A stretch of DNA of 64,000 bases from Mytilus galloprovincialis (lineage: Eukaryota > Mollusca > Bivalvia > Mytilida > Mytilidae): NCBI RefSeq assembly GCF_965363235.1, contig NC_134847.1:54840439-54904438 (forward strand), read 5' to 3'. Every line of letters starts with the position of its first letter. Within the stretch, counting starts at the first letter, position 1. Shown here in pieces: positions 4,750-55,310 of the stretch. The translations under genes were made by a program, and so were the position numbers. The notes beneath the pieces are model-generated. The model searched no databases and was not told the origin of the DNA. It was given only the letters and a program-made list of their open reading frames with translations.

Positions 4750-5545
4750 CTCTACTTGACTTTTATAAGACCGTTACTCGGATATTGCTGTAAAGTATGG
4801 GAGCACATGGATGTGAGGTATTGTAACATACTAAAGCAGCTGCAGCTTGAGGCAGCCATATGCATAATTGTAACAGGTCTTTCTTTTTTTACTTATATTC
4901 GTTTTTTTATGATGAGATTAGATGGGAAATTCTACCTGAACGAAGAGAAAGGATGCAGTTACAATTATTTGTTAATGTTTAACATAATGATGCATGAGCC
5001 TATCTTTGCCACTTAAATCCACCAACAATTCACAATACCCCTTACGCAATGAGAATGATATAATATATCCTTTTTGTACTTTCACTACTCAAGAATCCTT
5101 CATACCATCAACTATACGATTTTGGAATAATAAAATGAGTAAACAAACACAGTTGACTATTTACGTAAATTTAAAACCGATTTCGAAAATATTTACTGAA
5201 TTCAAAAGCCAAACATTATGAATTTGGAAATCGTAAACTCAACATAATTTTGACTTAACTTAGATGCTGAGCTTTTATTTTGAATAATGACCTTAACATA
5301 GTCAATATCATTTCCGAACCGTCTTGTCTCTGTGGTGCTAACCATCAAGATTCATATAACTTTTTTGTTAATGTCTGAATTGTGCGAATATAATAATCAA
5401 ACTATCTAATAATCTAAACTGGTTACCAGAGAACTCTCAACCACATTTGAACATCTTAACTTCCTGTGATTCGTCATTAACTAATGATGAAAAGGAAAGC
5501 ATTTTAACGAATGTATATTTATTTATTTAAGAGTAATCAGGTGTC
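4750..5545 (+). mobile_element. Decayed 3' end of a non-LTR retrotransposon
   Basis: The translation in shifting frames resembles the C-terminal part of a LINE-type ORF2: FIRPLLGYCCKVWEHMDVRY and LQLEAAICIIVTG (4756-4880), LRNENDIIYPFCTFTTQESF then IPSTIRFWNN (5045-5130), and a cysteine motif near SCLCGANHQDSY (5325-5360) followed by ILTSCDSSLTNDEKESIL (5455-5515). The order matches the post-RT region of jockey/CR1-like elements as I recall them. Several frameshifts and stops show it is dead. The 5' part is missing or unrecognisable, as usual for truncated insertions. Confidence 0.65.
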
Positions 5546-28600: not shown

Positions 28601-31600
28601 ATCTTTTAGGAAGTTTGGTCCTCAATGCTCTTAAACTTCGTACATTATTTGGCCTTTTTAACTTTTTTTGGATTCGAGCGTCACTGATGAGTCTTTTTGT
28701 TCGGTGTGAGCCAAGGCTCCGTGTTGAAGGCCGTACATTGACCTATAATGGTTTACTTTTATAAATTTGAATGTCTCATTGGCACTCACACCACATCTTC
28801 CTATATGTATTACATTGATATATACGTCATTAGAAGTTAATGAATGCAACAGTTTATTATTATATCTGCTCTTAGATTTCATGAAATTCTAATTATTGCA
28901 TTTGAATTCCACAAAACGAAGGATGTAAATGTAGGAGCATAAAGCAATCGCCATAAGACAAAGGTCTGTTAATGTTATATCTTAGCGTAACCTGAAGGAA
29001 ACCTTGAATGTTTAAACTATCATCATGAACCGATAACACACCCGTAGTCTGCTAAAACCGCATAGCGTACCACTTCGTCTATAAAAAATAAAATCACAAA
29101 AATACTGAACTCAGAGAAAAATCTAATCGGAAAGTCCATAATCACATGGCAAAATCGAATGACAAAACACATTAAAAACGAACGGACAAGAACTGTCATA
29201 TTCCTGACTTGGTACAGGCATTTTCAAACGTAGAAAATGGTGGATTAAACCTGGGTTTAAAGCGCGTAACCTCTCACTTTGATGACAGTCTCATCAAATA
29301 TCGTAAACAGATGATATTTGTTATGTAATTATTAAAGAAGGGTAAAATTTACGATGGCAAAATTCCAATTGTCTCCAAAATTATATCATTGATTGTAACA
29401 ATCATGTCTTGTCTAAACTGGGGATAAAGATAAAAAGGGAAATGATACAAACGAAAAAACATAATTTGAAGAAAGTTATAAAGCAACAATGGAATAAAAT
29501 AAAACCAATAGACAATCAACATACCACTACACAGAAATTAAATACGAAGCAAGATGAACACCACACAAAATGGATGTGAACTTCTGAGCTCCTGAAAGTC
29601 GAGCTGTTCCTGTCGTGTTCCTCATTGGCAGGGAAAATGTGATGACAAATCGCATTCTGTTATGTCATAACAAAAACGAATTCAGTCTGTCTTTTTGATA
29701 AAGAACAAAATGATCCCCAAGAAAAAATATATTGTCAAAGAATCATGTCAATTCACTCTTAAACTGTTTGCTTCAGATTGAAGAACAGAGCAGATAATAT
29801 ATTCATCTTGTTTGGGTACAGATTATTATATTATGTATAGGAAAAAGAAATGTATCTGGTCCATTATAAGTTACTATGTAGAATATTTTCTTCGGTTATT
29901 TTAGAGGATAAGGATATATTAATCTGATATTCCTTACAATTATATACCATCAATACCAGATATCTTATTTATAATATAATGATTTAATTGTACCTGCATA
30001 AATTCGCCTAAATTTTCTAGGATACCATGTACACCATATAACTGACAAACTTCATACAAGACTTTTGATGTATTACTATCTACTTTACAGTTTCGAATGC
30101 TATCTATAAAGTTCTGGACACAAAACAAGTGACAGTGAGCCTGAAAACCAATCAAATGCGTCATAAATATACTTGTTGACATGTTGAGCTATAAAATAGG
30201 GCACAAAATACTTAAATGAAAGGGTCAATGAAAATGTATCAATTAGATACTAATATTGGATCTTTCATATATATATATTGTACAACCATTGAGCAATTAA
30301 ATGACCTGTTGAATAAGAATTGTGGAATCGAATTATAAAGAATGAATAATATGTTATATCGTAGAATTGACAATGAAAGAATTTGATGAAAATGGTAATG
30401 AATTAGCTTGATCTTCTTTGTAGGAAAAAAAAGGATAAGTACCACAAATGAGATTTATTTAAATGCTTATGTCTTATTAATTACTTATTCTATTTTTTTT
30501 TTAGTGTAAAGAATAACTTATTCACCAGATTTTCACAAACTGAAATGTTTAAAAATAATTCATGCAGTACTACTAATGATAATAAGTTGACTTGTCGTAT
30601 TAGGGTTTGTATATAGGAAGATAACGAGTGCACGTGTCTTACTAATGTTTGTGTATAGGGAGATATATCTCTTAACCATTTGAGTCAAGGCGACCGTATT
30701 TTAACGATGTTTATAGCAGAGTATATTTATTCAAAACATTTACACCAAAAATATCTTACATTTGCCGCCAAAAAGAGTTGTACCGAACTTTTGTTCCAGG
30801 CTTCGTGTGCAGGACTACCTGACTGTATAAACGATTGCATTTGTTTGGCAGCCTCCTCAATTAATCTGCAAAAGAAACAGTATCAAAATATGTTCCTATT
30901 TTTATTGTTCCTATAATTATCATGAAAAGATTTTTGCATTACCGGTCGAATATTTAAAATATCTGAAACCTTCAACATCTATCTATATTTATGTGATTCT
31001 GTGGCTTGTTGAAATATAAATCCAACTATTATCATCTTAACAAATATGTTGTTGAACAAATTATAGTATTAAATATTTATGATTATGTCAACGTAATGTA
31101 TGATCATGTATTTTATTCGAATCCACCGATTTTAATCTAATATGTTTTTTTTTAAATCTCGGATAAGATGAGCCAGTTAGGGTTCTAAAATGCATATGTA
31201 TATACGGGAAAGAATTGTTTTATTTGATGTCATGTGATACATATAAGCATCCAGTATTTGGTATATCCTTAGTCATACTAAAACGCGTTTCCCCTGGACA
31301 ATTTTTTCTTAGATTAAAAACTCAATTTTGCTTTGCTGAACATGAATGATTATGGCAAGCCGTTCTCGTCAAAAATATGTTTAAACCCTTTTTTCGAAAA
31401 AAAAAATACACACTGAGATTTAAAAACCTAAAATAACACACTGAGAAATCGAAATTACACACTGAGATTTAAAAAAAATAAAAAACACACACTGAGAATT
31501 CAAAATTACACACTGATATTTTAAAAAGACACACTGAGATGAAATGAATTGAAAAACACACACTGAGAATTGTTAATTACACACTGAGATTTCAAAAATA

Positions 31601-34600
31601 CACACTGAGATTAATATGCAAATTACTAATGAATATTCATGAGATGAATAATTCAACAGATTAATATCTTGATCTCAAGAACTCTTGTCATTATAATGAA
31701 ATGCGATTCCTTCAACCAACATTCGTAATAAATTTCAAGACTTAACATCGCTCATATTTATAAGTTTGTTGCCTATAATTCAGATCATTACTACCAGTAT
31801 ATCGGGATTTTTTTTAAACTTAAAACCGTTTAAGCATGGGTCCCTTTTCTAAAGTCTTCCAACTGTTACCTTGATTTCTCAAGGTAATCTTTTATATTTT
31901 TGTTACGTTTATATGCTATAATAGACACGTGAGTAAAATTTTCACTGCATTCTTTGTTTTTCAGTTTTGCAGATTGTTCCAATGTTTTCTTATAATTTTA
32001 ATAAAGTTTTTCACCATTTGGTTATATTTTGTAATAAGAGTAAGTGGGTATTTTTCTTGTTCTTGTATTTCTAAAGTTTTTTTATAAATGATTTGGAACC
32101 AAATCGAAGGACTAACGAGTTCTGTCCCCTAGTTGTTTTAAGCTTGTAATATATTCCGATTAAGTATGCTAATTAGATATGTGCGCATTTTCTCAGTGTG
32201 TAATTCTAAATTCTCAGTTTGTAATTTCAAATTCTCAGTGTGGGTTTTCAGTTTATTTATTCTCAATCTGTCTTTTTGAAATCTCAGTGTGTAATTTTCA
32301 ATTCTCAGTGTGAAATTTTCAATTCTCAGTGTGCAATTTTCAATTCTCAGTGTGTAATTTTCAATTCTCAGTGTGTGTTTTTCCTTTTTGTAATCTCAGT
32401 GCGTCTTTTTTTGAAATCTCAGTGTGTAATTAATTCTCAGTGTGTGTTTTGAATTTTTTAAATCTCAAAAGTCTTTGTTTTAATTCTCAGTGTGTAAATT
32501 TTTCGAAAAATGGTTTAAACATAGTTTTGACGAGAACGGCTTGCCATAAATGATAAACCATTTTAGAAAGTAACCTCTGATGTTTCATGTCTGAATTTAA
32601 ATAACTATATAATTAAAATGTTTGATTTATATTTTTTACCTTGCTGCTCTGTGTTTATAAGCTTTGACTATGCAAGTAAATGAAACTTCGTCGTCCATAC
32701 GTGAGTTCTTTTCCATAGGCTCGCCAATATAACTGACAAATCCAGAGAGGGATTTCCCCTGTTGTTTGGTTCTGTGGCACTTCATCAGATACCTGCAATA
32801 TAATGGCATTTGCTTTCATGAATATAACTGCAAGTGATCCTTTACACAGTTAACCACTACTCCACTATCTGAGAGAAGGAAGTACTTCTTTAGCTCAGTT
32901 GTTACAAAAACTCATCAAATATAACAGGCGTATAATGTGGCACGCAAGACGTTCATCAGTTACACTAGAATCAAAATAGTTGGATGGTGAAAATCAAATA
33001 CAAAGTTCAAGAGAATTAAAAAGTAAAAATTCAAACAAGTTAAACAAGGGGTTAGAAAAACCTAATTGTGGGGTAAGAAAACCCTTATTTAATATTTCAA
33101 TAACTTCACATTTTACAAACAGAAACTTTAAAAAAAAAATGAATTTATCTATGACATTTCATGTCAACACAAGTACAAAAGAGGTGATCATCGGGCCAGA
33201 GTCAGGTCCTTTGCTGTTACAGTGGATATTGTGGATATTGTTAATACCAAAAATACCAAACTCCATGAAAAATTAAAATCGGAAAGTCCCTTATCAAATT
33301 GCAAAATAAAAAGCTCGAACGCATCAAACGAGTGGAAATGAACTCATCATAGATACCAGGATTGCAATTTTGTATATATTCAAGACGCTCATGTTATAAC
33401 ACAAATTAAGACAGAGCAAAAACAACCTCATCAAAACCCCGAATTTGCGGTATGGGCTGTGTTAAAGGCCGTACGGTGACATATAGTTGTTGATTTCACT
33501 GTCTTTTGGTCTCTTGTGGAGAGTTGTTTCATTGACTATCATACCACATCTTCTTTGTTATACTTATCAAAACCGGGTCGATCTCATGAGGACCGGAAGG
33601 TAAGCAAATTTTGCTGTAACTTTCGAAGAGATTTTATTAATACAATTGTATGTAGTAGCTTATCAAAGAAATCAGGCAAGGATACGCAAAACTCTGAATA
33701 TAATATTATCATTTGAGGATGCTGACGAAATGTTTATAAATAGAAATTGAAAGTAAAACTTTATAAATTTCGTACATCAAAAGTCCATTCCTAGATTTAC
33801 ATTCATTTATCATAAACGCACATATATATAAACATTTGAAAGCCTTGGTGTTTAAAATTCTTATAGACTTTATTAATTTTATGTCTCGCCTACTTTTGCT
33901 GTTAATCGCAGACTCAACAAAAATGAGGAAATAAATCAATAAAAATATTCCTCTTGATACTATCTTTTGAGTGTAAGAAGCTTCTGTCCAAGTTTGATAA
34001 AAATCCAGGATAGTTTATGAATCTAATAAACGTTTTAAAAACGTTAACTGCAGACTGTATGTAATGTTAACTGGAAGAAAGGTCCATTTATAAGTAAAAT
34101 AAAGATAAACATATACAAAATGTCCTTCTAGATACTAGCTTCTGATCATAAACAAGCTTTTGTCCAAGTTTGGTACAAATCCAGTATAGTTTAAGAAAGT
34201 TATTAAAATTTTAAAAACTTTAACCAAAGAGTGAATGTTATGTTTCCTGGCAAAAAAATTAAGTCCATTTATAAGTAAAATACGGAACAAATGAAATTTT
34301 ATTTTTACAAAATTTACTTCTTGATACTATCTTATGATCATAAACAAGCTTAGTTTGCTACAAATCCAGTCTAATTCATCTAAGGTAAATTTGCCCGAGG
34401 GAGTACGAAACTTAGTTTCTTAGTAATTCCTTAAATATAACTTGGAACTTTGAAATTTGCCGTACCAAATCATGCCTGTCTTGAAGCAAAATTCCGCAAA
34501 GTCAACTCGTTAATCTCCAAAACATAAATAAAAACTTCTATTGTTTTTAGGTTCAGGAGAACACTGCAATTTTATGATAAACATGTTGTACGATCTTTTG

Positions 34601-37600: not shown

Positions 37601-40600
37601 CGACGAGTTCCATTATAATTTATAATGCTCGGCAATAGACGAAAATAGACAATTGCTACTAAAGCATCATTTTGTAAACAGACCAAATATTTTAAAATTT
37701 CAAGGACTAATGAATAGTAGCAACCCGTCTGAACTAAACAATCTGTGAAAATGTATAAGAATTATTTTTAAATGCCTAGAATCTCCTGGGTAACCACACT
37801 CTCCATCCAAGTCCCAATGTTTAAAAAGTTAACAACAAATAGATTAAAACAATCCAAACAGGAAATCAAAAACGGTCTAATCTATATAAAAACAAGAAAT
37901 ACCTATCCAAAATTGTGAAAATAAAAAGTTTCGAATTACAACTTCTCAGTGTTATAAGAATAGCATATTATAAGTTACATGTGTGCTAGTGACCTAATAC
38001 GGTATACATGGGGTCAGTAAATTCCATATGGGGTGAGAGCGAAGTTCAAATCCCCATATGGAATTTACTGATCCCATATATAGCGTATTGGGTCACTAGC
38101 ACACTATGTAACGAATTTATCTTACCGACTATCATAACGTGTGAAATTTAGACCTATCAAAATGAGCAAGTCCTCAATACTGTTAGCATTAAGAAACTAC
38201 TTCCATAGATCCTACAAAAACAGATAACAACAATAACAACTTGTGAGGTTTAAATGTGTTATATGAATTTATTTCAATCTTAATCATCAATTTCTTCGTC
38301 TGTTGAAACCTTTACGATTTTATTTCTCAGTACCGTTTTGTTTTTATAAAGGGACGTAAAACCACTACTAACCGTGTATGGAATAAGCCCCGCCTCCATA
38401 CTACATTATATGGAATGTAAAGGGACTAACTCCACTACTAACCGTGTATGAGATAAGCCCCGCCTCCCTACTAACCTAATATCAGATATACACGGTCTCC
38501 ACGAGGTCGCTTTTAACCAATCACATTCCTAGAAATGTATAGGAGGTAAGATATTATATTCTCTGTGTTCTATTATAAGTCAAATGATGTGTTACATTGC
38601 GGAATGGTTTGATAAATATGTCTGACATCATATCGGACAGTCAACAATCCCATTAAATCATCATCTGTCAATCAACCTACTCTGAGTAGAAATGTATTTA
38701 CTGCTTTAAACAATAATGTCTTTAATAATAAATAATGTTACCCCATATAGTGGAAGATATTAGCAAGCAAAATCGAGGGAATTGTGCAAATGATGATACA
38801 AGCATGAAAATTACCACAAAGCATCATTATTATATACTTTGTAAGAAATAACTGCTGGCCATTTAAAAAAATATTTTTTTCAAGATGGCCAAGGCCATTT
38901 TCTAAAATGGCTGTTTTCTTTAGTTTGAAAATACTGATTTTTCTGGAAAACTTTTCTTTGAACTTCTTTTAGTAAAAACCAATTACCAGGTTTGGTCGCT
39001 ACCTTCCCTACATCACATATTTATTTAAAATGAATATTTGACATATCCAGTATTTGCGCATGCGCGAAAATGTAACAAAATTCTTTCAAAAACATTTGAA
39101 CTATTTAATATATATTTAGTGTTTTTGGATTTCTAATGATATTATGAATTGGTTTATTAACATTTTTCAAGGTTCACACTTTTGCGCATGTGCAAACTAT
39201 TTATAGACATCAAGGGCGATTGGTATGCACTACCAGGCAATTATCAGGTATTCGATGGTTAAGGCGAAAATGTAGTTAATCTGGAGAATCATCAAATGTA
39301 ACTGCAGATCAGCCACTTTTGGAAATGCCTAAGCAAATTCAGTGGAAATGGCCCAATGGAAAATATAAGTGTATCGTCATGTTTGGTGGATTACACATTG
39401 AAATGACTTGTTATAAAACTCTGGGTGATATATTGTGTGATAGGGGATAGATATGTTGTCTTACTGAAGCCAATATTGCAACACCAAGAACGGCAGATTC
39501 TTTTTATGTATGTTCAAATGTACCTAGGACTGGACAGGCGCATCAGACAACTGCATGTATTTTGCTTAAAAATTGTAAATTTCAGATTATGAAAGCTAAA
39601 CTCAGAATATATAATTATGTCATGACGTTCAATGATTTAAAGACTGGTGTAAGGAAATAGAGTCATCTCGACCACAGTTTAATTCCTGGCGTTCAATTAT
39701 AAATTAAGAACTTCTTCTGATTTTGGTATTATGCTCATTTCATGAGTTAGACAGTCCATATAAAGCATGATAGCGTATTGTTTTAGGTCTTGATCGTGTA
39801 AATTATAGGTGGCAATGGGATTTGAAAATGATAATTTCACTGTACGTAAGACCAGTAAATTTCTTTCTTGTAACACAATTGATCAGGCACAAAAACAGAA
39901 TAATGCAATTGTGAAGGGCGATATTGGTGCCATAGGATTAACCGAAGATCTCATTTAGACAAATGGATGGTAGCTGTACCAGGAGTCAGTATACTAGAAG
40001 ATGAATTTGAAAGATCTAGTGGTTTGGGTCATTCTAAAACAGACGAACGACATAATGAAGTCTCTACGAAAACACAAAAAGAATTCTTTAAACAGCTTTA
40101 AAGGCTTTGCAAGTATGAACGAGTTTGGAAATTCATTTCTAGAAGAGTCGTCAGATTTGTAAAAAAATACTTCATTTAGGAAATTGTTGATTCGGAAACA
40201 GGTAAGATATGTAAATAAACTCCAAGATATTGGTCCAAACAATACGAAGATCTTTTGAAGCAAATGAAAAACGAAGGAAAACCTGCTTTGTATAACCAAA
40301 TAAAAAAGAACAACTTCCTATTTTGGCCGCAAAATGAAACTGGAAACGTCTTTGTCAAAAACAAAGCTAGAGAACCTTAAAAGTGATTGCGATATCTTTT
40401 CTAGACTTTTCATTTCTTGTCACAGTAGACAGTTTTACTTGTAATATTTCTTTATCCATAGAAACCAAACTGCTCCGCCGTCTTTTTCTCAGGATGTCAC
40501 TTGAAATAGTGGTATTAAATCGCTGCAAATGGGTTTACTTGAAACATTCTGCGATTTGCTGATCCGAATTCGGACGCATTTATCGTTGGTGGGGCAGCAA

Positions 40601-43600
40601 TGGTTAATTCCAGGTCACAAAGTTGGGCAAAAATATTTGATGATTATGCTAATGACGTCATACAGCCTTATGTAAAATCTTGCATCGATAAGTATTCAAA
40701 AGTAGACATTGTATTTGATGTTTACTAAATGAATAATTTAAAGGCTGTGACAAGATAAAGGCAATGTTCTTGTACCAGATGGAAAGGTGTTGGTTCTGGT
40801 AGAACACCAAGAGTATGGAGTAGTTTTCTCTGTGAAGATGACAAAAAAACGAAATTGTTCAAGTTTCTTGCTGACATAATTTGCTTCTTAAGAGACTATT
40901 ACAAATGTGTATATTACTCAATTTCAATAAAGATACTTGCTATCTATCCCCTTGTAATCATGAAGAAGCAGATACACGAATGTTTGTCCATGTTCGGCAT
41001 GATTATAAAAAGTGTTGTTAAATGTAATTTTAGGTAGTACTGACACAGATGTAATAGTATCAAGAACTGCAGCAATCGCAAAATTGTGTAGAACAAATTG
41101 CAGATAGGTTATGGAAGGAATAACGACTTTGATGGCTTCCTGCACGTGACATATCAAATGCGTTTGGTCCTTGTGTAGCTGCTTTTCCTTTCGTCCATGC
41201 ATTTAGTGGATGTGGCACTTTGTCGAATTGTCATGAGAAAGGCAAAAGGTCAGCTTAAATAACAATGGAAGGTTTTCCAGATGTGAAGGATGTTTTTTTA
41301 GGCTTAAGTATGGAGCGAATTAGGTCTTGATCGTGTAAATTATCCTCGATCGTTAACGACTCATCTCCGAGATATGACTTCCCTTCCCGAACATCACCCA
41401 CAGGTGGCAATGGGATTTGAAAATGTGAATGTGATTTGAATTGTTTGCCAGGAAGCAGCGGCATTGTGATGCAATTCCGCCTACAAGAGGTTCTTTTCCA
41501 GAGCACATCAAAAGAGAAGTATATCAAGGAGGAGTTGCATGGGCTCAGCCTGATTCATGTATTCGACAGGTACGTGTTCCAAGTCATGAACACTGTGGTT
41601 GGATGAAAGAAAGAATCAATGACAGTTGGAAACCGAAATGGACTTCTTTGACTACCGTTGCATCCTCGAGTCAGAAAATTTTGAAATGCGGAGCCGAAAA
41701 CCGAGCTGTGTTGGTAACTGTAGATGCTACCGTTCTGGCCTTCCTTGTACGGGTTGTTGTAACTATCAGATAATTATAAAATAAGCAATCTGTCTTTCTA
41801 ACCAAACTAGGCATTTAAACTTAACAAAGAGTGTTAACACTTGTTAAGTTGATGGTAATTATATGTATTTGCCGCCATTTTGGAACCGGAAGTCACTATT
41901 TTTCTTCATTTATGTGTTGTTTCGTCGTACTTAGGAACTTTCTTTAACGTTTTATCATAACTTACATTGGATTATACATCCCTTGTGAAGTTGCTTGAAA
42001 GTATAAAAATTGAAATTTTTAACTTTTTTGCCGGCATTTTGAAACCGGAAGTCACCTTTAGTTTCATTAATGTATTGTCTAGTCGTAATTTAGGAACTGT
42101 CATTGACTTTTTATCATATCTAACATTGGATTTTACATATAACACACCTTTTAAAGGATAAACGAATTATTGTCAATTTGTAATGACGCCATTTCCGAAA
42201 TGTGTGGTGGCCATCTTGAAAAAATGATTTTTTTTTCTGGCCAGCAGCGGATTTTTTTTTTAGTATCATTTAGTCAACCTTAATACCAAATTTCATGCTT
42301 GTATCACGATTTGCACAATTATGTCCATAATATCTCCCACTAATACACAACAGCAGATAAAGATCGATCAAAGAACTAATAAATTCTTATTGAGATCATC
42401 AATCAAAATTAATTTCAGGAATATCAAAAAACAAAAAACAAAAATACCGAACTCCAAGGAAAATTCCAAACGAAAAGTTCTTTATCAAAAAGCAAAATCC
42501 AAAGCTCCAACGCAACGAACGAATTGGAAACTAGTCAACTGTCATAGTCCTGACTTGATAAAGAATATAGAAAATGGCGGAGTAAACCCTCTATAGGGGT
42601 AAATTCAGTAAAAAATCTCCCATTGACTTTAATGCTAATCTATGTGTGGAAATAAATTTATACCTGATTTACCTTTAGAAATTAAAATCTTTCATATATC
42701 ATTCATGAAAGTACAAATGTAGCCCTATCTTTTGCAACAGTCATGCGGCATTTTTGGGCATTCACATGGCCTTGTTTACAAACAATGTAGATTCGCACTG
42801 AATTCCTATACTGACCCCATTACTTTTCAACCCTGTAGAGGAAAAAATTAGTACATTCGGCATTTATTTTTTATTTTTTTTCAACTCTAGTTTTGATCCA
42901 TCTAACAAAAAATATTTATTACAAACATTATCTACCAATCAGAAGAGCACATGACTTCACTTTTAGACAGAAAGCTGTCCCCCCTAAATGGGCGGTCCCT
43001 GATGACGTATATTTATTTACTGAATTTACCCCTATAGCTAGTTAAATCTTTCATATGTATGACACAATCACATCAATATGTTTAACAAGAATTTCCCCGA
43101 CTTAACGAGCTCTCTCGAATGTTGTTATGTATGGTCCACAACTTGAAGTAACGGACTTTAAAACAACAATTTATTTCATTTATATACTTTGGAGTTTGGT
43201 GTGACGTCCATTGAACTAAAGGGTCCAGCTGAAGCCCGCCTCCGCGAGCGGACTTTTCGCCCAGTGTAAAACGTCACCAGTGTCAGAGCAGAAAGATTAT
43301 GAACCAGGGGTATGTCAAAGAAAATCTCGTCCTTTTTCTTACAAAGTTCATTGGAATCAACTAAGACCTTGTTGATAAATATTCCGGATAAATTTCACAA
43401 ATAATACACGATGGTCTTGAGAGTAGATTTTTGGTACTGACATTGTTTATCATATTTAAAACGTGTTATAGTATTCTTTTATGTATATTACTTTTACTGT
43501 TTAGTCTGATTTTGGTGATATGCATTTGACGTGACTTTGTATTTGTGTTTTGTATTTTACCATAATTTTCGTATTCTTGTCTTTAATTTTTGCTTAAGTC

Positions 43601-46600
43601 TTTGTCTATATGCCTTTTTGTGCTACTTTGTTACATATTCGGTAATTGTTTTTATAGTATAACACAATGTTGACTGCTATACCCCTATTTTTGACATTTT
43701 TACCTATTATACCCGTTTGTTTTGTTCACACCTCGATGTCAATATAATAGAATTTGATGTGACTTCCATACACCTGAGAGGTTTAACTACTCAAACCAGG
43801 TTTAACCCACCATTTTCTACATAAGAAAATGCCTGTACCAAGTCAGGAATATGACAGTTGTTATTCGTTTGATGTGTTTGAGCTTTTGATTTTGCTATGC
43901 GATTAAGGACTCTCCGTTTTGGATTTCCCCCGGAGTTCAGTATCTTTATTGAATTTACTTTTTGATTGCCCATTGGTAGCCTTTGACTGTTTTCTGTTGT
44001 TTAGTCGAGTTGTCAGTATTTTTTTAATCAGAAATATTTTTTCTGTGAATCTAAATAAAATATACTTACCCCGGTGTTAATTCAGATTGTCTTCTGACAG
44101 CACTGTAGCGAATAGCTATAGTACAAGCCTCGGCCAGATGTAAAGCGGCACCTCTAACAATGAATGATCTGACAAGTACCATAACCCCATATGTCACTTT
44201 AGTATTTTCAGGTTTAATATAAGTACCATCCTCTAAGACCTGATGAAAGACAACAGTATGTGTATTTCTAAATAAGTCTTAGTACTTAACTTATTTAGTA
44301 TGGTTTTTATATTCATATATCATAATTCGTTATATAACATAGTTATGAAAGGTACCAGGATTATAATTTAATACGCCAGACGCGCGTTTCGTCTACATAA
44401 GACTCATCAGTGGCGCTCAGATCAAAAAGGTTATAGAGCCAAACAAGTACAAATTTGAAGAGCATTGAGGACCCAACATTCCGAAAAGGTTGTGCCCAAT
44501 ACGGCTAAGGTAATCTATTCCTGGGATAAGAAATCCTTATTTTTCGAAAAATTTAAATTTTTGTAACAGGAAACTATAACTATTTAAAAGTATGTATTTA
44601 TAAATGGTGGATCACCTGCGTCAGACAGCAACAATTTAAATGTGATAACAGATTTCCACAAATTTTATCAATTTGTGGAAATCAGTTATCACATTCAAAT
44701 GGTTGCTCTCTAAGGCAAACTAAGAGATATTAAATAAATAAAGGCAGCAGTATTATACCGCTGTTCAAAAGTCTAAAATCGATTGAGAAAAAACTAAAAT
44801 CGAGGGAAACACATTAACTATAAGAGAAAAACAACAAAATAAAAGAACACAGAAGTGCAACAAAAAACAAACAACAATGCAACGTTCATAGAAACGAACT
44901 ATTAGATAACAACTGCTTACTTGGTACCGGACTTTACTTGGTACCGAACTCTTTTTTTTAATATGGTGGGTTGGAACTGGTTTTGTGTCTAGCCAAACCT
45001 CCGCGCTTTATCAAACCATCACTAAATTAATTGCAACTGTTGATTAAGTTGCACGATATTGAAAATCTTTAAAAAAAAAAATGCCAGATCTCGAATGTGA
45101 AGTATTTGGGTTGAAACTGTAGGAACCGAAGATTACACATTATAATTATTCTCTACAGCGCGAGGTTATTTTGGTGGTGTATTATTTAGTATTTTAGTTT
45201 GGTATCATACAATATATTACTCACTTTAGAGTATCGCATCATCATATTTTCCCGTGGAATCTTGACACTGTTAAGTTTTAGATATCCATTGTCGTTAGTT
45301 CCAAATCCAAACTTGTTACCTATCACACCGTTTTCAATTCCTACAATAGTATTTGAATTATATGTTTGTCAGATGTGTTAAATTATATAGTAAAAAGGCC
45401 TTTTACGTGTTGAAAATCTACCTCCAGTTTATGGTGAGGTTCGCGATGATGACTTTAAAGTTTTCTAAGCCATTGTGGTAATTAATTTGATGATTTGCCA
45501 CACTCGTCCTTTGTACGAACAAAATAATTTGAGATTTGTTTTACTCTTAAGGGATTAAATTTTTACAATTCTAGCAGCATGGCTGATATTTCATAACGGT
45601 TCATATTGATAACTGAGTTATAAAGAACAATCCAAACTAGAGCAAGCCCATATATATACCATTATAATATTGAAAATGGAAACCGGGAATATTTTTGTTT
45701 TATATGCTGTAAATACAAAAAAAGTATACTCATGTATGCTTTAATGTAACGATGTCCGGCGAAAAAGGTACGTTATGTATCATATCGGTTAGGTCCATAC
45801 TTTGATTCGTGTTTTTAAAACATGTTTATGCATATCAAAGCCATTTTTCTTATAAACTGTAGATGAGCATTTCTTTACCAGGCAGCAGGCTGTGGTCTTC
45901 TAAACTCCTCAACTGTAGCATGAATATATGGATGCCATGACATTTCCCTTGTGTGTATAACTGGGCAACCACCACACAATGATTTGATGTTCTTCCTACT
46001 GAAGAAAAAAACTAGTCATGGTTATCAAGTTATTAACGCATTTTGTTGTATGTACTTTTAGGTTTTGAAATATGCGATAGGACTTAATCGATCAGTGTTC
46101 AACATAAAAGTATTTTCAAGAAAACATGTATATATACAAAATGTGGCATTTCCATGGGTAAAAAGAATTTGTGGGGATACACATCAATGGGAGCCTTCCT
46201 GCCTTTGTTAGTCTTACATGATTTTTAATTTTAGTTCATTTATATATTTCGGAGTTTAGTATGACGTCCATTATCACTGTGAAGTAGCACATATTTATGT
46301 TTAGGGGCCAGCTGTAGCACGCCTCCGGGTGCGGGACTTTCCCGCTGTATTGAAGACCCGCTGGTGGTCTTCGGTTGTTTTCTTCTCTTTGGTCGGGTTG
46401 TTGTCTCTTTGACACATTCCCCATTTCGATTCTTAATTTTATAATTTTATAAACTACATATTAATTTAATCAACATGCATTCTTTTACAATAGACAATAG
46501 TATGTCTCTAATTGCGCTCCGAGTTTTAAAAACTTATTAATCGATTTTAGATATAAACTCATCGCAGACTACCAAATTCCCCAAAAAAACACATTTAGGT

Positions 46601-49600: not shown

Positions 49601-52600
49601 GCAGGCTTAACTCGATCAAAAAACTATATTAATACACTATAAACGAATAAATTTGATCTATGATATCTGAATGCAAATGCACAGTTAATAAGATATTAGG
49701 GACAAACATTCAAGGCCAAAAACCAAACAAACAAGTCCAAACAAAGCCATGTCAAGACACCACTGCGAAATATTTAATCCTTCGAAAATATTCACTTTTA
49801 AAAAAAAAAAAAAACAAAAAAAAAAAAACAGTTTTTAAAAAATACAGGTAAATCTAAGTTTATACAAATGTAGTAAGAAGAAGTGATATTCCAAATAATC
49901 AAAGCTGGTATATAGACAAGATCCATATAAATATAAAATAACAAAACAGCATTATAAACATTATCAACAGGTCGAATTGAGAGTACTCGCAGTTACTGAC
50001 AGCTAGTTAAAAGCCAAAAACAATTAATAATATAAAAAAAAATCATGCATCAGAGACTAAAATCAACTAAAACACATCCCAGGGACATAGTATTTTAACG
50101 TCATGAACAGTCAGAGAAGACATGACTTGTGCAATGCCAAAAATAAATGTATCGACAGGTAGTAGGATAGTGAGTATGGTTTTTCGTTTGTAATATGATT
50201 GAGAGGTTTTTTTAGACTTATATAGCCAGATATATTTCAATCGTCGTAATTTCTATTCCATCTTCTTTTCCCTGAATGTGAGCATCTGAATTATACTGTT
50301 CATCAAGTTTGTACTTCCAACACAACGCATTTTGTTTGAGTTTTTTAAGTTGGAGCAACACAACGGGTTGCCACTTGTGGAGCAAGTTCGGCTTACCCTT
50401 CCGTAGGAGCTTAGATCATCCACAGTTTTTGGTTGGGTTTTTATTGGTGAATCTTTGATTTTATATGTAGTGTTTTGTGTATTGTTGTTTGTTTGTTCGT
50501 TTTCTTTTTAGCCATTACTTTTTCAATTTATTTTCGATTTATGATAATGAAGGTCTCTTTGGTATCTTTTGCCTCTTTTTTATAAGATCTTGACAACACA
50601 AATATTGACTAAAAGAGAACATTCTACACAAAAACACAAAAGAAAAGGCATACTGGAAAGAGAAGAAATATACGATAAATAAGCTTGGGATACGCTACTA
50701 TTTCAAGAATAATTATATGTCTACCTATCGCATCCAAGACGAAAAAAAAGTGTAAAAATTCAACGTCACAATTATTCCTGAAAATGGAACAGTACACATT
50801 ACGACTTATAAAGGAAAAGAAAATGGGAAACTATAATAGTAGAAAATATATCCAACAAATAAGTTTCGGCTAATCTGCTTTTTAGAGAATAGGCTAATGG
50901 GTTGATTACTGATATATAAAAGTATACATCTTACTGTTTATATATCATCAAATCATTTCTGTCTGTTAGTCCATGCTTTTCAATCTGTTTTTTAACATGC
51001 ATGTGTTTTGTTAAGGCAGTTTCATACTGTTCCTCTACACTACAATACGACCAAGGTTTAAGCTGTCTATAAAACGGATCTTCACGTACAATGTTTTCTA
51101 CAAAAAAAAGTTAAGAAAAAGTAAGCAATGTAGGTTTCATTTCACATATTGAAAGATGGGTTACGTGGGGATTCTCATAGTATTTTAATATGGAAGCTTC
51201 AAAGTTATCTGACATGAGTTAATGGGTCGTTCCGAAATGTGCCTTGTAGTTGTGGTACCGTAAACAATAGAACTCAATCAAAAATAGCTTAATATTGTAT
51301 TGTCAAAAACACATGATGACAAAATCAAGTTTACCAAGTATGAAAGCTTTCTGGTATAATGGCGTAAATTCCTGAGCATATAATGATTTCCAATTTCACG
51401 CACAGGCGCTTGGGTATATGATACAGATATTCTTTAGCCTGATAAAAATAGAAGTTAAACAAATGACATAAAATGATTGAACGTTCTACATTGTCAACTG
51501 TCAAATTCACACAATCCAATAAAGATTTTTATTTTTTTTTGTCCTGATTAAAATAGTTTATTTTCTATATTTATACTACATATATCTACCACCACTATCC
51601 ATACTGAGAAACATTTGTTTAAATCACTCGAAACTAGGTGAGACATGCACATTGGTGAAACATATGTGTTATAAATATAGAAAATTGAATATTTTAATCA
51701 ACAACAAAACAATTTAAAAAAAGAATCTAAAGCATATACCCAAACGCCTGTGATCCCGGCCTGTCTCTACATCGGTTATAACGCCTGTGATCCAGGCCTG
51801 TCTCTACATCGGTTATAACGCCTGTGATCCAGGCCTGTCACTACATCGGTTATAACGCCTGTGATCCAGGCCTGTCACTACATCGGTTATAACGCCTGTG
51901 ATCCAGGCGTCTCTACATCGGTTATAACGCCTGTGATCCAGGCCTGTCTCTATATCGGTTATAACGCCTGTGATCCAGGCCTGTCACTACATCGGTTATA
52001 ACGCCTGTGATCCAGGCCTGTCTCTACATCGGTTATAACGTCTGTAATCCAGGCCTGTCACTACATCGGTTATAACGCCTGTGATCCAGGCCTGTCTCTA
52101 CATCGGTTATAACGCCTGTGATCCAAGCCTGTCTCTACATCGGTTATAACGCCTGTGATCCAGGCCTGTCTCTACATCGGTTATAACGCCTGTCTTGTCT
52201 CTTTCTCACCAGCAATGCCATTGTCACTGGGTAATTTTCCCCACTGGCATGTAAAGATCCAGAATCAAATCTCGCATAGTCATTTTTTTCTGCTAAGAGT
52301 ATGGATCCAGAAGAATAGCTCACTTGTCCTGATTAAAATAGTTTATTTTCTATATTTATACTACATATATCTACCACCACTATCCATACTGAGAAACATT
52401 TGTTTAAATCACTCGAAACTAGGTGAGACATGGACATTGGTGAAACATATGTGTTATAAATATAGAAAATTGAATATTTTAATCAACAACAAAACAATTT
52501 AAAAAAAGAATCTAAAGCATATACCCAAACGCCTGTGATCCCGGCCTGTCTCTACATCGGTTATAACGCCTGTGATCCAGGCCTGTCTCTACATCGGTTA

Positions 52601-53122
52601 TAACGCCTGTGATCCAGGCCTGTCTCTACATCGGTTATAACGCCTGTGATCCAGGCCTGTCTCTACATCGGTTATAACGCCTGTGATCCAGTGCAAATCT
52701 ATGTGAATTAAGTTTTTTTATCCTACATTGAACTTTTGATGTCGTCCCTTAGCACAACAACCTTCTTAGCCAACATCAAACAGATATCAACGTTCTTTCT
52801 TTTTGTCACAATATAAAGCTGCTCATGTATAAACATTAATGACAAATGCTTGGATGAGTCTATTTTATCAGTTGTTGTCGTTCTGTCCTAGTCAATACCA
52901 TATACTAGTAATTATATGCAGATTAATTTAGCCAGATACATGTAAACGTTCTACATTTTGAACTTAGTTTCTCATTTTTTTTTAGTAAATTTACATACCG
53001 ATATAACGCTTCCTTTTTAGCTTAGCTGGCCCTCCATGAAGTAGAACTGATAAATTTTCTACATTAAATGTTGCCTTCTGTCTCTCCTTGGCTAAATCCG
53101 GGTTGATGCTTCCTTGTGACAT
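25601..53122 (-). CDS. ACOX1: Peroxisomal acyl-CoA oxidase (ACOX1-like), 14 coding exons
   Basis: FAD-dependent oxidase that introduces the trans-2 double bond into acyl-CoA and passes electrons to oxygen, making H2O2: the first step of peroxisomal beta-oxidation. Coding exons, 5' to 3' on the minus strand: 53122-52999, 51097-50935, 48809-48649, 47783-47676, 45998-45879, 45340-45225, 44239-44070, 37214-37052, 36785-36595, 32792-32640, 30865-30760, 30140-29994, 27820-27614, 25660-25601. All introns are GT-AG, all phases close, and the total is 1989 nt (662 residues plus stop), close to the roughly 660 of vertebrate ACOX1. Visible motifs: N-terminal [12 protein letters not shown]-region [10 protein letters not shown] (141-150), [24 protein letters not shown] with the expected catalytic Glu at about 427, and C-terminal SKL (PTS1). 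No stop or frameshift interrupts the exons, so it should be functional. Gene identity rests on recalled ACOX1 homology; orthology versus a paralogue was not tested. Confidence 0.95.
26108..26500. repeat. Two adjacent tandem duplications
   Basis: ATTTGTTATTCTC...TTAATGCGTTTC recurs at 26111 and 26239 (about 128 bp). TACCCCGATTTTG...GCCTTTATT recurs at 26358 and 26428 (70 bp). The open frame across 26158-26532 arises from this repeat. Related unduplicated copies: 20470-20680, 44735-44890 (reverse). Confidence 0.75.
26590..26945 (+). repeat. Dispersed GAGCGTCACTGATGA family, copy
   Basis: Shares CCCCGAGGGTATCAC, ATTCGAGCGTCACTGATGA and GACGAAATGCGCGTCTAGTG, in order, with the copies at 28300-28700, 8165-8455, 49140-49465 and 44345-44560 (reverse). 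Non-coding, about 350 bp when full length. Confidence 0.75.
27614..27820 (-). CDS. ACOX1: ACOX1 coding exon 13
   Basis: 207 nt, phase 0. It encodes [20 protein letters not shown], then [20 protein letters not shown] and [16 protein letters not shown]. The VALVDAFDF and LGRYDG blocks are strongly conserved in ACOX1. Confidence 0.95.
28300..28700 (+). repeat. Dispersed GAGCGTCACTGATGA family, two adjacent copies
   Basis: The 3' end of one copy (28308-28380, ACGAAACGCGCGTCTGGCG) is followed at once by another copy (28385-28700, CCCCGAGGGTATCACAAGCC to GCGTCACTGATGAGTC). Confidence 0.75.
29088..29290 (+). repeat. Dispersed repeat (CGGAAAGTCC / GACTTGGTACAGG family)
   Basis: AATACTGAACTC...GGAAAGTCCATAATCA...ATTCCTGACTTGGTACAGGC...AACCTCTCACTT. 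Other plus copies: 22436-22515, 33260-33340, 42436-42595, 56065-56275. Minus copies: 3661-3820, 12630-12775, 25735-25925, 43765-43965. The most abundant family in the window. Confidence 0.8.
29994..30140 (-). CDS. ACOX1: ACOX1 coding exon 12
   Basis: 147 nt, phase 0 on both sides. It encodes [20 protein letters not shown] and onward to [16 protein letters not shown], matching vertebrate AHCHY...LYGI..NAG(D/E)F. Confidence 0.94.
30760..30865 (-). CDS. ACOX1: ACOX1 coding exon 11
   Basis: 106 nt encoding [20 protein letters not shown] then [15 protein letters not shown], which aligns with the helical C-terminal domain of ACOX1. Acceptor TCTTTTGCAG, donor GTAAGA. Confidence 0.92.
31351..32548. 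mobile_element. 1.2-kb foldback element with opposed ACACACTGAGA arrays
   Basis: Terminal inverted repeats begin TATGGCAAGCCGTTCTCGTC at 31351 and end with its complement at 32548; homology extends about 60 bp (GTTTAAACC, TTTTTCGAAAAA). Just inside each end is an array of ACACACTGAGA separated by short AT spacers: nine copies at about 31407-31615 on the plus strand, and about thirteen, some degenerate, in opposite orientation at about 32190-32505. AATGAT flanks both sides (31345-31350 and 32549-32554) as a target duplication. The 570-bp core has no ORF. It lies in ACOX1 intron 10. Confidence 0.85.
32640..32792 (-). CDS. ACOX1: ACOX1 coding exon 10
   Basis: 153 nt encoding [20 protein letters not shown] and onward to [11 protein letters not shown]. 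Its donor lies only 91 bp from the end of the foldback element at 31351-32548. Confidence 0.92.
33960..34400. repeat. Dispersed repeat with internal units (ACOX1 intron 9)
   Basis: AAGCTT(C/T)TGTCCAAGTTTG...AATCCAG(G/T)ATAGTTTA recurs at 33978, 34154 and, shortened, 34346. The same family is present at 62925-63420. Confidence 0.7.
34811..36477. mobile_element. Non-autonomous hAT-like element, 1.67 kb
   Basis: The left end reads CAGGGTCGTAACTA; the right end is the complement of CAGGGCCGTAACTA, and both continue into GAGGCAAA motifs. CTATT flanks both ends (34806-34810 and 36478-36482). CAGGG termini fit hAT; the 5-bp duplication would suit a hAT5-like group. Near the left end is the palindrome GGGCCCTTTAAAAGGGCCC. 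No transposase ORF is visible. It lies in ACOX1 intron 9. Confidence 0.7.
36595..36785 (-). CDS. ACOX1: ACOX1 coding exon 9 (active site)
   Basis: 191 nt encoding [20 protein letters not shown], then [20 protein letters not shown] and [15 protein letters not shown]. The Glu of YEG is the expected catalytic base that abstracts the alpha proton. Confidence 0.96.
37052..37214 (-). CDS. ACOX1: ACOX1 coding exon 8
   Basis: 163 nt encoding [20 protein letters not shown] then [12 protein letters not shown], matching the conserved ILD(F/Y)QTQQY(K/R)LFPLL helix. Donor GTATCT. Confidence 0.95.
37974..38112. repeat. Hairpin MITE, 53-bp arms
   Basis: Arms 37981-38033 and 38052-38104 are inverted copies with about 4 mismatches (GTGTGCTAGTGACC, TCAGTAAATTCCATATGGGG), loop 18 nt. 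Outer bases GTTACAT/ATGTAAC extend the stem. ACOX1 intron 7. Confidence 0.85.
38750..42340 (+). mobile_element. 3.6-kb TIR DNA transposon with TA target duplication
   Basis: The left end at 38750 reads GTGGAAGATATTA and the reverse complement of the right end at 42340 reads GTGGGAGATATTA. Both continue into ATTGTGCAAAT, GTGATACAAGCATGAAA-like, CTGCTGGCCA and CAAGATGGCC, giving imperfect terminal inverted repeats of roughly 150 bp. TA flanks both sides (38748-38749 and 42341-42342). Inside lies a decayed protein gene (39325-41790), and near the right end two about 159-bp direct repeats (41882 and 42041, GGAACCGGAAGTCAC-like). The element sits in ACOX1 intron 7, on the opposite strand to the host gene. 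Confidence 0.75.
39325..41790 (+). pseudogene. Broken transposon protein with acidic motifs and CXC-like tail
   Basis: Fragments in all three plus frames, in order: [20 protein letters not shown] and GGLHIEM (39325); [20 protein letters not shown] (39458); [20 protein letters not shown] then IGLTED (39875-39945); [13 protein letters not shown]-like (40945); [10 protein letters not shown] (41038); [14 protein letters not shown] (41190); [20 protein letters not shown] (41467); and a Cys-rich end, [20 protein letters not shown] (41710). I recall these motifs from a multi-copy invertebrate hypothetical protein family. EADTR, DTDV and (in intact relatives) GCDT resemble acidic positions of PIN/XPG-type nucleases; here the last has Asp changed to Gly. 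The tail resembles a tesmin-type CXC zinc module. At least ten stops or frameshifts, plus an internal rearrangement near 41320-41440. Confidence 0.65.
42596..43032. mobile_element. 437-bp TIR element nested in another repeat
   Basis: Ends are GGGGTAAATTCAGTAAA and its exact complement TTTACTGAATTTACCCC, flanked by TATA on each side (42592-42595 and 43033-43036). The flanks rejoin as the GAAAATGG...TATAGCTAG consensus of a dispersed mussel repeat seen at 56065-56275, so this element inserted into that repeat. It is non-coding. Confidence 0.8.
44070..44239 (-). CDS. ACOX1: ACOX1 coding exon 7
   Basis: 170 nt encoding [20 protein letters not shown] and onward to [18 protein letters not shown]. 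The [10 protein letters not shown] segment is a family hallmark. The following 6.9-kb intron holds the 3.6-kb TIR transposon. Confidence 0.95.
44345..44560 (-). repeat. Dispersed GAGCGTCACTGATGA family, reverse copy
   Basis: Reads ACGCCAGACGCGCGTTTCGT then ATCAGTGGCGCTCAGATC on the plus strand, i.e. inverted. In ACOX1 intron 6 next to exon 7. A shorter inverted copy is at 1805-1910. Confidence 0.75.
44627..44708. repeat. Hairpin element in ACOX1 intron 6
   Basis: Arms of about 38 bp (AGCAACAATTTAAATGTGAT / complement) around a 5-nt loop, with few mismatches. Near-perfect stem GATTTCCACAAATT. Confidence 0.8.
45225..45340 (-). CDS. ACOX1: ACOX1 coding exon 6
   Basis: 116 nt encoding [20 protein letters not shown] then [18 protein letters not shown], the middle beta-domain with the conserved IPRENM(L/M)M segment. 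Donor GTGAGT. Confidence 0.94.
45879..45998 (-). CDS. ACOX1: ACOX1 coding exon 5
   Basis: 120 nt encoding [20 protein letters not shown] and onward to HSLLP. It aligns with the vertebrate LGKTSNHAIVLAQL block. Acceptor TTTTTCTTCAG, donor GTAAAG. Confidence 0.94.
46743..47522 (+). repeat. Terminal-hairpin repeat family, copy 1
   Basis: Starts with hairpin AGGCTCTCAAGAGCCT then GTGTCGCTCACCT. Ends with hairpin TGGCCCTACGGGCCA then GGTGAGCTAAAAA. GCTCACCT and AGGTGAGC are inverted copies of each other. The 3' hairpin followed by CTAA is reminiscent of Helitron ends. Lies in ACOX1 intron 4. Confidence 0.7.
47676..47783 (-). CDS. ACOX1: ACOX1 coding exon 4
   Basis: 108 nt encoding [20 protein letters not shown] through ATKFWPGG. 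The WPGG loop is the conserved flavin-contacting turn. Acceptor ATTGAAAG, donor GTAAGT. Confidence 0.94.
47870..48200. repeat. Local direct duplication in ACOX1 intron 3
   Basis: GCTTCTTTTTGTAACTTCAT...GAAGTACATG...TATGAAGCGCTTCATTCT (47878-47965) recurs diverged at 48095-48190 (GCTTTTTTGTAATTTCATTG...TATGAAGCGC...TTTCATTCT). Confidence 0.65.
48649..48809 (-). CDS. ACOX1: ACOX1 coding exon 3
   Basis: 161 nt encoding [20 protein letters not shown] through TYAQTELGH. The TYAQTE(L/M)GHG block contacts FAD in the family. In vertebrates this position has two mutually exclusive exons; only one version was seen here. The donor is GTCAGT. Confidence 0.94.
48850..48965 (-). repeat. GGCCGTACGGTGAC family, reverse copy
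   Basis: Begins AATGTGGTGTGAGTGCCAAT and ends GAGCTTTGGCTCACACCG. It abuts ACOX1 exon 3 at its upstream side and is the complement of the subfamily at 28698-28802. Confidence 0.75.
49140..49465 (+). repeat. Dispersed GAGCGTCACTGATGA family, diverged copy
   Basis: GGTGGACTGTTAGTCCCCGA, CTACGAGCATCACTGAAGAG and GTCGAAATGCGCATCTGGTG mark a subfamily also represented at 8165-8455. In ACOX1 intron 2. Confidence 0.7.
50935..51097 (-). CDS. ACOX1: ACOX1 coding exon 2
   Basis: Acceptor TTTTTTTGTAG, donor GTAAGA, 163 nt. It encodes [20 protein letters not shown] and onward to NDLMIYK, the N-terminal helical acyl-CoA oxidase domain. It is separated from exon 1 by an intron that carries the 37-bp minisatellite. 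Confidence 0.92.
51435..51526. repeat. 92-bp duplicated block, copy in ACOX1 intron 1
   Basis: Starts TAGCCTGATAAAAATAGAAG, ends CCAATAAAGAT. Identical by eye to 53206-53297, which lies 84 bp upstream of the ACOX1 start codon. Confidence 0.9.
51743..52193 (+). repeat. 37-bp minisatellite, 12 full units
   Basis: The unit starts AACGCCTGTGATCCAGGCCT and ends CTACATCGGTTAT, 37 bp. There are twelve units plus a 9-bp start; unit 5 is 35 bp and unit 1 has CCCGG for CCAGG. There are no spacers. Intron 1 of ACOX1. Confidence 0.95.
52528..52692 (+). repeat. 37-bp minisatellite, second array (4.4 units)
   Basis: Same unit as the array at 51743, again with the CCCGG variant in unit 1. Its 5' flank (52326-52527) repeats 51541-51742 with about one visible difference, so array and flank were duplicated together at an offset of 785 bp. 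Confidence 0.95.
52999..53122 (-). CDS. ACOX1: ACOX1 coding exon 1 (start codon)
   Basis: The ATG is at 53122-53120, and the exon encodes [20 protein letters not shown] and onward to residue 42 (split Gly or Glu codon). The NPDL...ER start is typical of ACOX1. It ends at a GTATGT donor. A possible acceptor (TGCTGCAG) lies at 53140, so an upstream untranslated exon is likely. Confidence 0.92.
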
Positions 53123-53426: not shown

Positions 53427-55310
53427 TTTTTAGCTCACCTGGCCTAAAAGGCCATGTGAGCTTTTCTCATCACTTGGCGTCCGTCGTCGTCGTCGTCGTC
53501 GTCGTCGTTAACAATTTTTCAAACATCTTCTCCTCTGAAACTACTGAATGGATTTGAATGAAACTTAACATGATTGTTCCTTAGTATATCCTGCACAAAA
53601 TGTGCGCTTCGATTTTTGATCCGTCAAAAAACATGGCCACCGTTACTTAAAATAGAACATAGGGGTCAAATGCAGTTTTTGGCTTATATCTCAAAAACGA
53701 AAGCATTTAGAGCAAATCTGACATGGGGTAAAAATGTTCATTAGGTCAAGATCTATCAGCCCTGAAATTTTCAGATGAATCAAACAAACCATTGTTGGGT
53801 TGCTGCCACTTAATTGGTAATTTTAAGGAAATTTTGCAGTTTTTGGTCATTATCTTGAATATTATTATAGATAAAGATAAACTGTAAACAGCAAAAAAGA
53901 TCAGCAAAGTAAGATCTACAAATAAGTTAATATGACCAAAATTGTCAATTGACCCCTTAAGGGGTTATTGTCCTTTAATGACAATTTTTCACAATTTGTT
54001 CATCATATTTGCTAACTTTAAAAAATCTTCTCCTCTGAAACTACTGAATGGATTTGGTTAAAACTTAGCATGGTTGTTCCTTAGATTATCCTGCACAAAG
54101 TGTGTGCTTTGATTTTTGATCCGTCAAAAAACATGGCCGCCGTTACTTAAAATAGAACATAGGGGTCAAATGCAGTTTTTGGCTTATATCTCAAAAACGA
54201 AAGCAGTAAGAGCAAATCTGACATGGAGTAAAAATGTTCATTAGGTCAATATCTATCAGCCCTGAAATTTTCAGATGAATCAAACATCCAATTGTTGGGT
54301 TGCTGCCACTTAATTGGTAATTTTAAGGAAATTTTGCAGTTTTTGGTCATTATCTTGAATATTATTATAGATAAAGATAAACTGTAAACAGCAAAAAAGA
54401 TCAGCAAAGTAAGATCTACAAATAAGTTAATATGACCAAAATTGTCAATTGACCCCTTAAGGGGTTATTGTCCTTTAATGACAATTTTTCACAATTTGTT
54501 CATCATATTTGCTAACTTTAAAAAATCTTCTCCTCTGAAACTACTGAATGGATTTGGTTAAAACTTAGCATGGTTGTTCCTTAGATTATCCTGCACAAAG
54601 TGTGTGCTTTGATTTTTGATCCGTCAAAAAACATGGCCGCCGTTACTTAAAATAGAACATAGGGGTCAAATGCAGTTTTTGGCTTATATCTCAAAAACAA
54701 AAGCATTAAGAGCAAATCTGACATGGAGTAAAAATGTTCATTAGGTCAATATCTATCAGCCCTGAAATTTTCAGATGAATCAAACATCCAATTGTTGGGT
54801 TGCTGCCACTTAATTGGTAATTTTAAGGAAATTTTGCAGTTTTTGGTCATTATCTTGAATATTATTATAGATAAAGATAAACTGTAAACAGCAAATATGA
54901 TCAGCAAAGTAAGATCTACAAATAAGTCAATTTGACCAAAATTGTCAATTGACCTCTTTAGGAGTTATTGCCCTTTAAAGACTTTTTTCACAATTTGTTC
55001 ATCATGTTGACTGACTTTAAAAAATCTTCTCTTATGAAACTGCTGTATCAATTTCAGCCAAACTTAGGCTAAATGAGTTTCAGAGTTTCAGAGTATCTAG
55101 TATAAATTTTATATTTCATTTCCTTGTATGTCAAGAAACATAGCTCCTATGGCTAAAATAGAACATAGGAGAAAATGATTTTTTTTTTGCTTTTGAAGAA
55201 AATAGGACGATTCAAAGAACATTTAAATAAATTGAAAAGCCAAAATAATCATTGATGAGAGATTAAACCAAAAAAATTCAGGTGAGCGATTCAGGCTCTT
55301 GAGAGCCTCT
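53427..55310 (-). repeat. Terminal-hairpin repeat family, copy 2, with 500-bp tandem units
   Basis: Inverted relative to copy 1: starts TTTTTAGCTCACCTGGCC with stem TGGCC/GGCCA, ends AGGTGAGCGATTC and AGGCTCTTGAGAGCCT. The interior has tandem units starting at 53521, 54021, 54521 and 55020 (each TCTTCTC..TGAAACT), period 500 bp. The second and third are almost identical; the fourth is truncated and diverged. A (CGT)n run lies at about 53480-53508. Confidence 0.8.

Follow-up and report, generated by a model that had tools for sequence, protein, structure and literature searches.

A worn-out DNA transposon in Mytilus galloprovincialis, very probably of the Academ superfamily, ties an unannotated protein family to mobility

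The locus described here raises the question of whether the fragments of an unannotated protein and the imperfect inverted ends that surround them belong to one mobile element and, if so, to which group of transposons that element should be assigned. It lies in a window of 64,000 nucleotides (the whole stretch of DNA that was analysed), for which an initial annotation, made from the letters alone, had proposed a transposon at 38750..42340 with imperfect inverted ends of roughly 150 bp. Both the limits and the ends were recovered almost as proposed, the former shifted by at most 2 bp (38748-42342) and the latter about 160 bp long, imperfect, and pairing as two arms, 38780-38849 with 42251-42320 (70% complementary) and 38852-38911 with 42188-42247 (78% complementary). 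The element is largely an ordinary, worn-out cut-and-paste transposon that is not self-sufficient, and we are highly confident that it represents a DNA transposon of the Academ superfamily that has become defective, its likeliest home being the nuclease-encoding AcademX lineage as described in print. Its extent and non-coding features are as follows.

38748..42342, plus strand: whole element of 3595 bp, a decayed, non-autonomous and very probably Academ-type DNA transposon, with tips TAGTGG...CCACTA
38748..38911, plus strand: left terminal inverted repeat, imperfect
42188..42342, minus strand: right terminal inverted repeat, imperfect
41868..42138, plus strand: tandem duplication in the non-coding 3' end, period 159 bp, with a duplication at this place in 37 of 40 copies

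The protein fragments between the ends are numbered by the C-terminal frame of L051, the nearest relative in the genome with long open frames, and together span residues 416-1271 of that frame. Their conserved order, as claimed at the outset, holds across this span, with the exception of residues 590-626, which are displaced.

39283..39570, plus strand: protein fragment, residues 416-512 (ADQP...FGGLHIEM region), 63% identical to L051
39642..39812, plus strand: protein fragment, residues 538-600, frame 3
39809..40558, plus strand: protein fragment, residues 618-868, in frames 2 and 1 and interrupted by many stops
40549..40938, plus strand: N-terminal half of the putative XPG-like nuclease region, residues 868-997, with GG at the first acidic residue (DG in relatives)
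40911..41312, plus strand: C-terminal half of the putative nuclease region, residues 996-1130
41320..41430, plus strand: displaced block, residues 590-626, a duplication shared with L009 and L010
41435..41692, plus strand: protein fragment, residues 1165-1248, frame 2
41695..41760, plus strand: CXC-like cysteine tail, residues 1250-1271, frame 1

Within 40911..41312 the motif EEADTR is intact, the DTD part is out of frame, and GCD has become GCG. The displaced block is present as an insertion in three copies at distinct places (the window copy, L009, and L010), and it seems that about 110 bp were duplicated into this position in their common ancestor. At the source site of the block (window 39783-39806), the window copy is without 58 bp that L009 and L010 retain; the gap there is 0 in the window copy alone and 58 bp in most others, while L013 has a different loss and four copies were not measurable.

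A DNA search of the 1.38-Gb assembly returned at least 219 matching pieces (best 40 of 890 candidates scored), and 40 loci were retrieved, the window copy among them. Both ends were present in 33 of these 40, and the seven loci without both (L014, L020, L025, L027, L044, L045, and L047) were excluded from the flank tally. Only two frames of at least 150 aa occur in the 40 loci, and neither is a transposase: the 333-aa frame of L020 begins past the last stretch matched to L051, and the 153-aa frame of L031 lies at the 3' non-coding end. When mapped on L051, 35 of the 40 copies jump from the 5' end to the coding part at about 2700-2930, L051 positions 450-2700 (about 600 N-terminal residues) are retained in none of the 40 fetched stretches, and a second deletion near 4954-5064 is directly visible in 34. 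The window copy is a member of a non-autonomous subfamily without the N-terminal approximately 600 residues, a loss that would already have been present in the common source of the subfamily. Since these breaks are common to copies at separate sites, we infer that the subfamily moved in trans. The L020 frame carries CCHC-like zinc knuckles and starts at about 3401, just past the last element match, and the impression from its sequence is that another element, perhaps a LINE, was inserted there.

Relatives with long open frames are numerous when the genome is queried with protein, the largest such search giving at least 144 matches (130 of 4009 candidates scored). L051 itself is 5821 bp long and has two open frames, one of 211 aa and one of 1280 aa, in different reading frames, which contain, in order, N-terminal zinc-finger-like segments (CxxC...HxxC), a large conserved middle, the nuclease region, and a C-terminal cysteine tail. 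The XPG/FEN-like motifs of the nuclease region are DG, VFD/VWD, EEADTR, DTDVVV, and GCDxVS..GKKxA. Seven relatives, drawn from several families, were traced to both ends: in each, the gene is framed by inverted ends that start with TAGTGG or TAGTCC, and exact 3-bp duplications flank six of them (TAA in L051, L053, and L054; AAA in L052; TCA in L056; CAT in L059). The seventh, L055, has mismatched flanks (TAA vs AAT), which counts against our preferred explanation. Selection was assessed in the nuclease region of eight pairs, for three of which dS was uncomputable. The dN/dS ratio was 0.10-0.11 for L051/L052, 0.27-0.28 for L053/L054, and 0.20-0.24 for L053/L057; it was 0.19 for L055/L059, where dS is saturated, while for L055/L058, a pair with very few changes, two methods gave 0.67 and 0.87. 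Ratios below 1 between close copies count for the preferred explanation; the L055/L058 values and the three pairs that gave no dS count against it.

The proposal of a terminal-inverted-repeat transposon carrying this protein as its own is thus upheld by the inverted ends and duplications of the relatives; nor are such ends lacking from the long-frame relatives or confined to this locus, as all seven relatives and 33 of the 40 copies are two-ended. That the fragment has nothing to do with the ends, being what is left of a host gene captured once, might be suggested by the protein of the window copy, which is broken in all frames, yet the seven long-frame relatives of several families, in which inverted ends enclose the gene and six of which show 3-bp duplications, led us to dismiss this reading within the genome and to give it practically no credence. 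The unannotated protein family is firmly tied to mobility. A family unrecognised by Pfam and NCBIfam is thereby assigned to a mobile element whose ends are defined, which would aid annotation of its many fragments.

The assignment of the element depends on its target site. TA at both edges had been noted and read as the target duplication, and the dinucleotide is indeed near-constant in the two-ended copies (left in 29 of 33, right in 32 of 33). Just outside it, however, the window copy has matching flanks.

38745..38747, no strand: left 3-bp target site duplication, ATA, outside the terminal TA
42343..42345, no strand: right 3-bp target site duplication, ATA, outside the terminal TA

An exact 3-bp match outside TA was found in 26 of the 33 two-ended copies, whereas 5000 shuffles of left against right flanks gave 2.53 matching copies on average and never more than 9. 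One copy (L030) has a duplication of exactly 4 bp, the remaining six fit neither 3 nor 4 bp, and a scan for duplications of 5-8 bp found none in the 33 copies. Flank joins, each retaining a single copy of the 3 bp and lacking TA, were built for 27 of the 33 two-ended copies, and three of them (L019, L013, and L041) were searched. The L019 join matched across the junction at no fewer than 37 places (95-99%, mostly of the query's length) and the L013 join at at least three (99%, 150 of 150 bases); for L041 there was no empty site among the matches listed (best 40 of 5220 candidates). The L019 insertion sits in a repeat, its matches also adjoining at a spacing of about 147 bp, and the L013 insertion sits in what looks like a LINE, judging from the reading frame. 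Because 3 bp match outside TA and the empty sites have no TA, TA is the terminal dinucleotide of the element itself and stays with it, the true duplication being the 3 bp outside.

TA as a target duplication was accordingly dismissed, and with it falls the argument for a separate lineage, as the real duplication is of 3 bp (once 4 bp) and AcademX makes duplications of 3-4 bp and encodes a nuclease. The alternative initially proposed, an undescribed superfamily of its own that duplicates a 2-bp TA target, would account for TA at both edges, but for the copies tested it is refuted by the matching 3 bp outside TA and by the TA-less empty sites of two insertions, and we consider it extremely improbable; nor was the 2-bp TA duplication of Tc1/mariner and other TA-duplicating superfamilies found. 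The correction matters in that the TA reading would have pointed to a new superfamily.

The AcademX lineage, reportedly due to Kojima in 2020, encodes a nuclease of the XPG type. One source gives duplications of 3 or 4 bp for AcademX and of 9 or 10 bp for AcademH, and relates this difference to the encoded nuclease (AcademX) versus helicase (AcademH) (PMC10045372). By this description, the suggested nearness to Academ is supported: the duplication length of AcademX is that found here (26 of 33 at 3 bp, one at 4 bp), terminal inverted repeats are present in the window family and in its relatives, a nuclease is probably encoded, and the frames of L051-L053 have no helicase match in Pfam, in agreement with AcademX. 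No tested feature differs, the comparison being with a description and not with a reference sequence. Exact 3-bp matches in 26 of 33 copies fix the duplication length, which departs from the 9-10 bp of AcademH; AcademH, which would be of the same superfamily if our filing is right, differs in both its duplication and its helicase (PMC10045372). Academ elements are described as amplified in bivalves, with 100 curated elements averaging 5565 bp, close to the 5821 bp of L051 (PMC10294476), and the repeat table of the hard clam genome paper contains an Academ-1 row (PMC8905726). On the grounds of duplication and ends, and with size in agreement, the element is probably an AcademX member as that lineage is described, in which the window family may stand as a new family. 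It is unlikely that the element belongs to a lineage outside Academ whose 3-bp duplication and nuclease of XPG-like type are shared by chance; in its favour, Academ was compared by description only and the Pfam and NCBIfam matches carry no weight, whereas the duplication length, the probable nuclease, and the lack of a helicase match fit AcademX, and the size fits Academ (PMC10045372 and PMC10294476).

The initial annotation had likened three motifs to metal-binding acidic positions of a PIN/XPG-type nuclease, and here the motifs fared better than the database comparisons: the acidic motifs are invariant in all six aligned relatives, which have 14 invariant acidic columns in this region, and they fall into the FEN1 register, with no backing from Pfam, NCBIfam, PDB sequences, or hmmsearch. 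Once the relatives are aligned with 105 archaeal FEN1 proteins, five of seven FEN1 catalytic acids, at positions that we take from FEN1 motifs, lie on invariant acids, a number reached in none of 400 shuffles (maximum 4) and, when any acidic residue is counted, in 5 of 400, in a test chosen after the register of the alignment had been seen and with a permissive alignment. The relatives share with the XPG/FEN1 nucleases (FEN1, EXO1, and XPG) the order of motifs EA(D/E), DxD, and GCD followed by a GxGxKxA-like turn, and overall profile similarity to them is not significant. The first hhalign of the nuclease profile (5 sequences) against FEN1 gave a single weak local match, and in the register test the total score was at chance, being reached in 161 of 400 shuffles (100/200 and 61/200). 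An hmmsearch with a profile of six sequences, also used in the register test, showed no enrichment of the 105 archaeal FEN1 sequences used in all these comparisons (from 118 loci, those with a suitable ORF) over 540 decoy ORFs (AUC 0.40); the single best row was a FEN1 at 6.3 bits, and the middle region gave an AUC of 0.44.

No Pfam family, helicase included, was found at E ≤10 in five frames of L051-L053, and searches elsewhere gave weak rows only: Pfam overall (best E 0.13), NCBIfam (a lone row at E 0.037, its 13 bits far below the cut-off of 120), PHROGs (best 0.15), and PDB sequences (best 1.2). The XPG_I model matched only three places in the genome, none among the places of the listed relatives. 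The acidic motifs stand side by side in host exons L060-L062, which we take, from their motifs, to be of XPG/FEN1 type. No relatives were found in viral contigs, prokaryote genomes, or phages at the search sensitivities used. Kinship of the protein with XPG is probable, not proven, as judged by its acidic register and not by overall scores or Pfam.

A full-length protein supplied by a relative would bind the inverted ends, excise the element, and insert it at a 3-bp staggered cut, with the middle region performing strand transfer and the nuclease trimming or cleaving intermediates; subfamily copies, without the N-terminal region, would be moved by it in trans. The middle region may resemble the fungal DUF6589, a likeness that Pfam does not support. 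Academ is counted among the DDD/E superfamilies (PMC9587614), and no DDD/E catalytic triad was identified here, which counts against our preferred explanation. We think it very doubtful that the XPG-like nuclease is the main catalytic domain that cuts the ends, with movement proceeding without a DDD/E transposase and the nuclease being more than an accessory. Should the nuclease prove to take part in transposition, how Academ elements divide the work between it and the transposase would become testable.

Several other features were observed elsewhere in the window. A match to the type I hammerhead ribozyme (Rfam RF00163) lies on the minus strand at 44373-44416, its 34.8 bits slightly above the gathering score of 34. 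Longer open frames on the minus strand (14999-15427, 17515-18009, and 18858-19337) appear, from their sequence, to resemble immunoglobulin-type domains of a host gene. Repeats include a 37-bp satellite at 51743-52193 and 52528-52691 (95% and 99% matches between copies), a tandem array at 53517-55045 with a unit reported as 500 bp, the finder's maximum period (3.1 copies, 96% matches), and, at 31402-31612 and 32190-32502, a 21-bp unit of ACACACTGAGA type arrayed in two opposite orientations.
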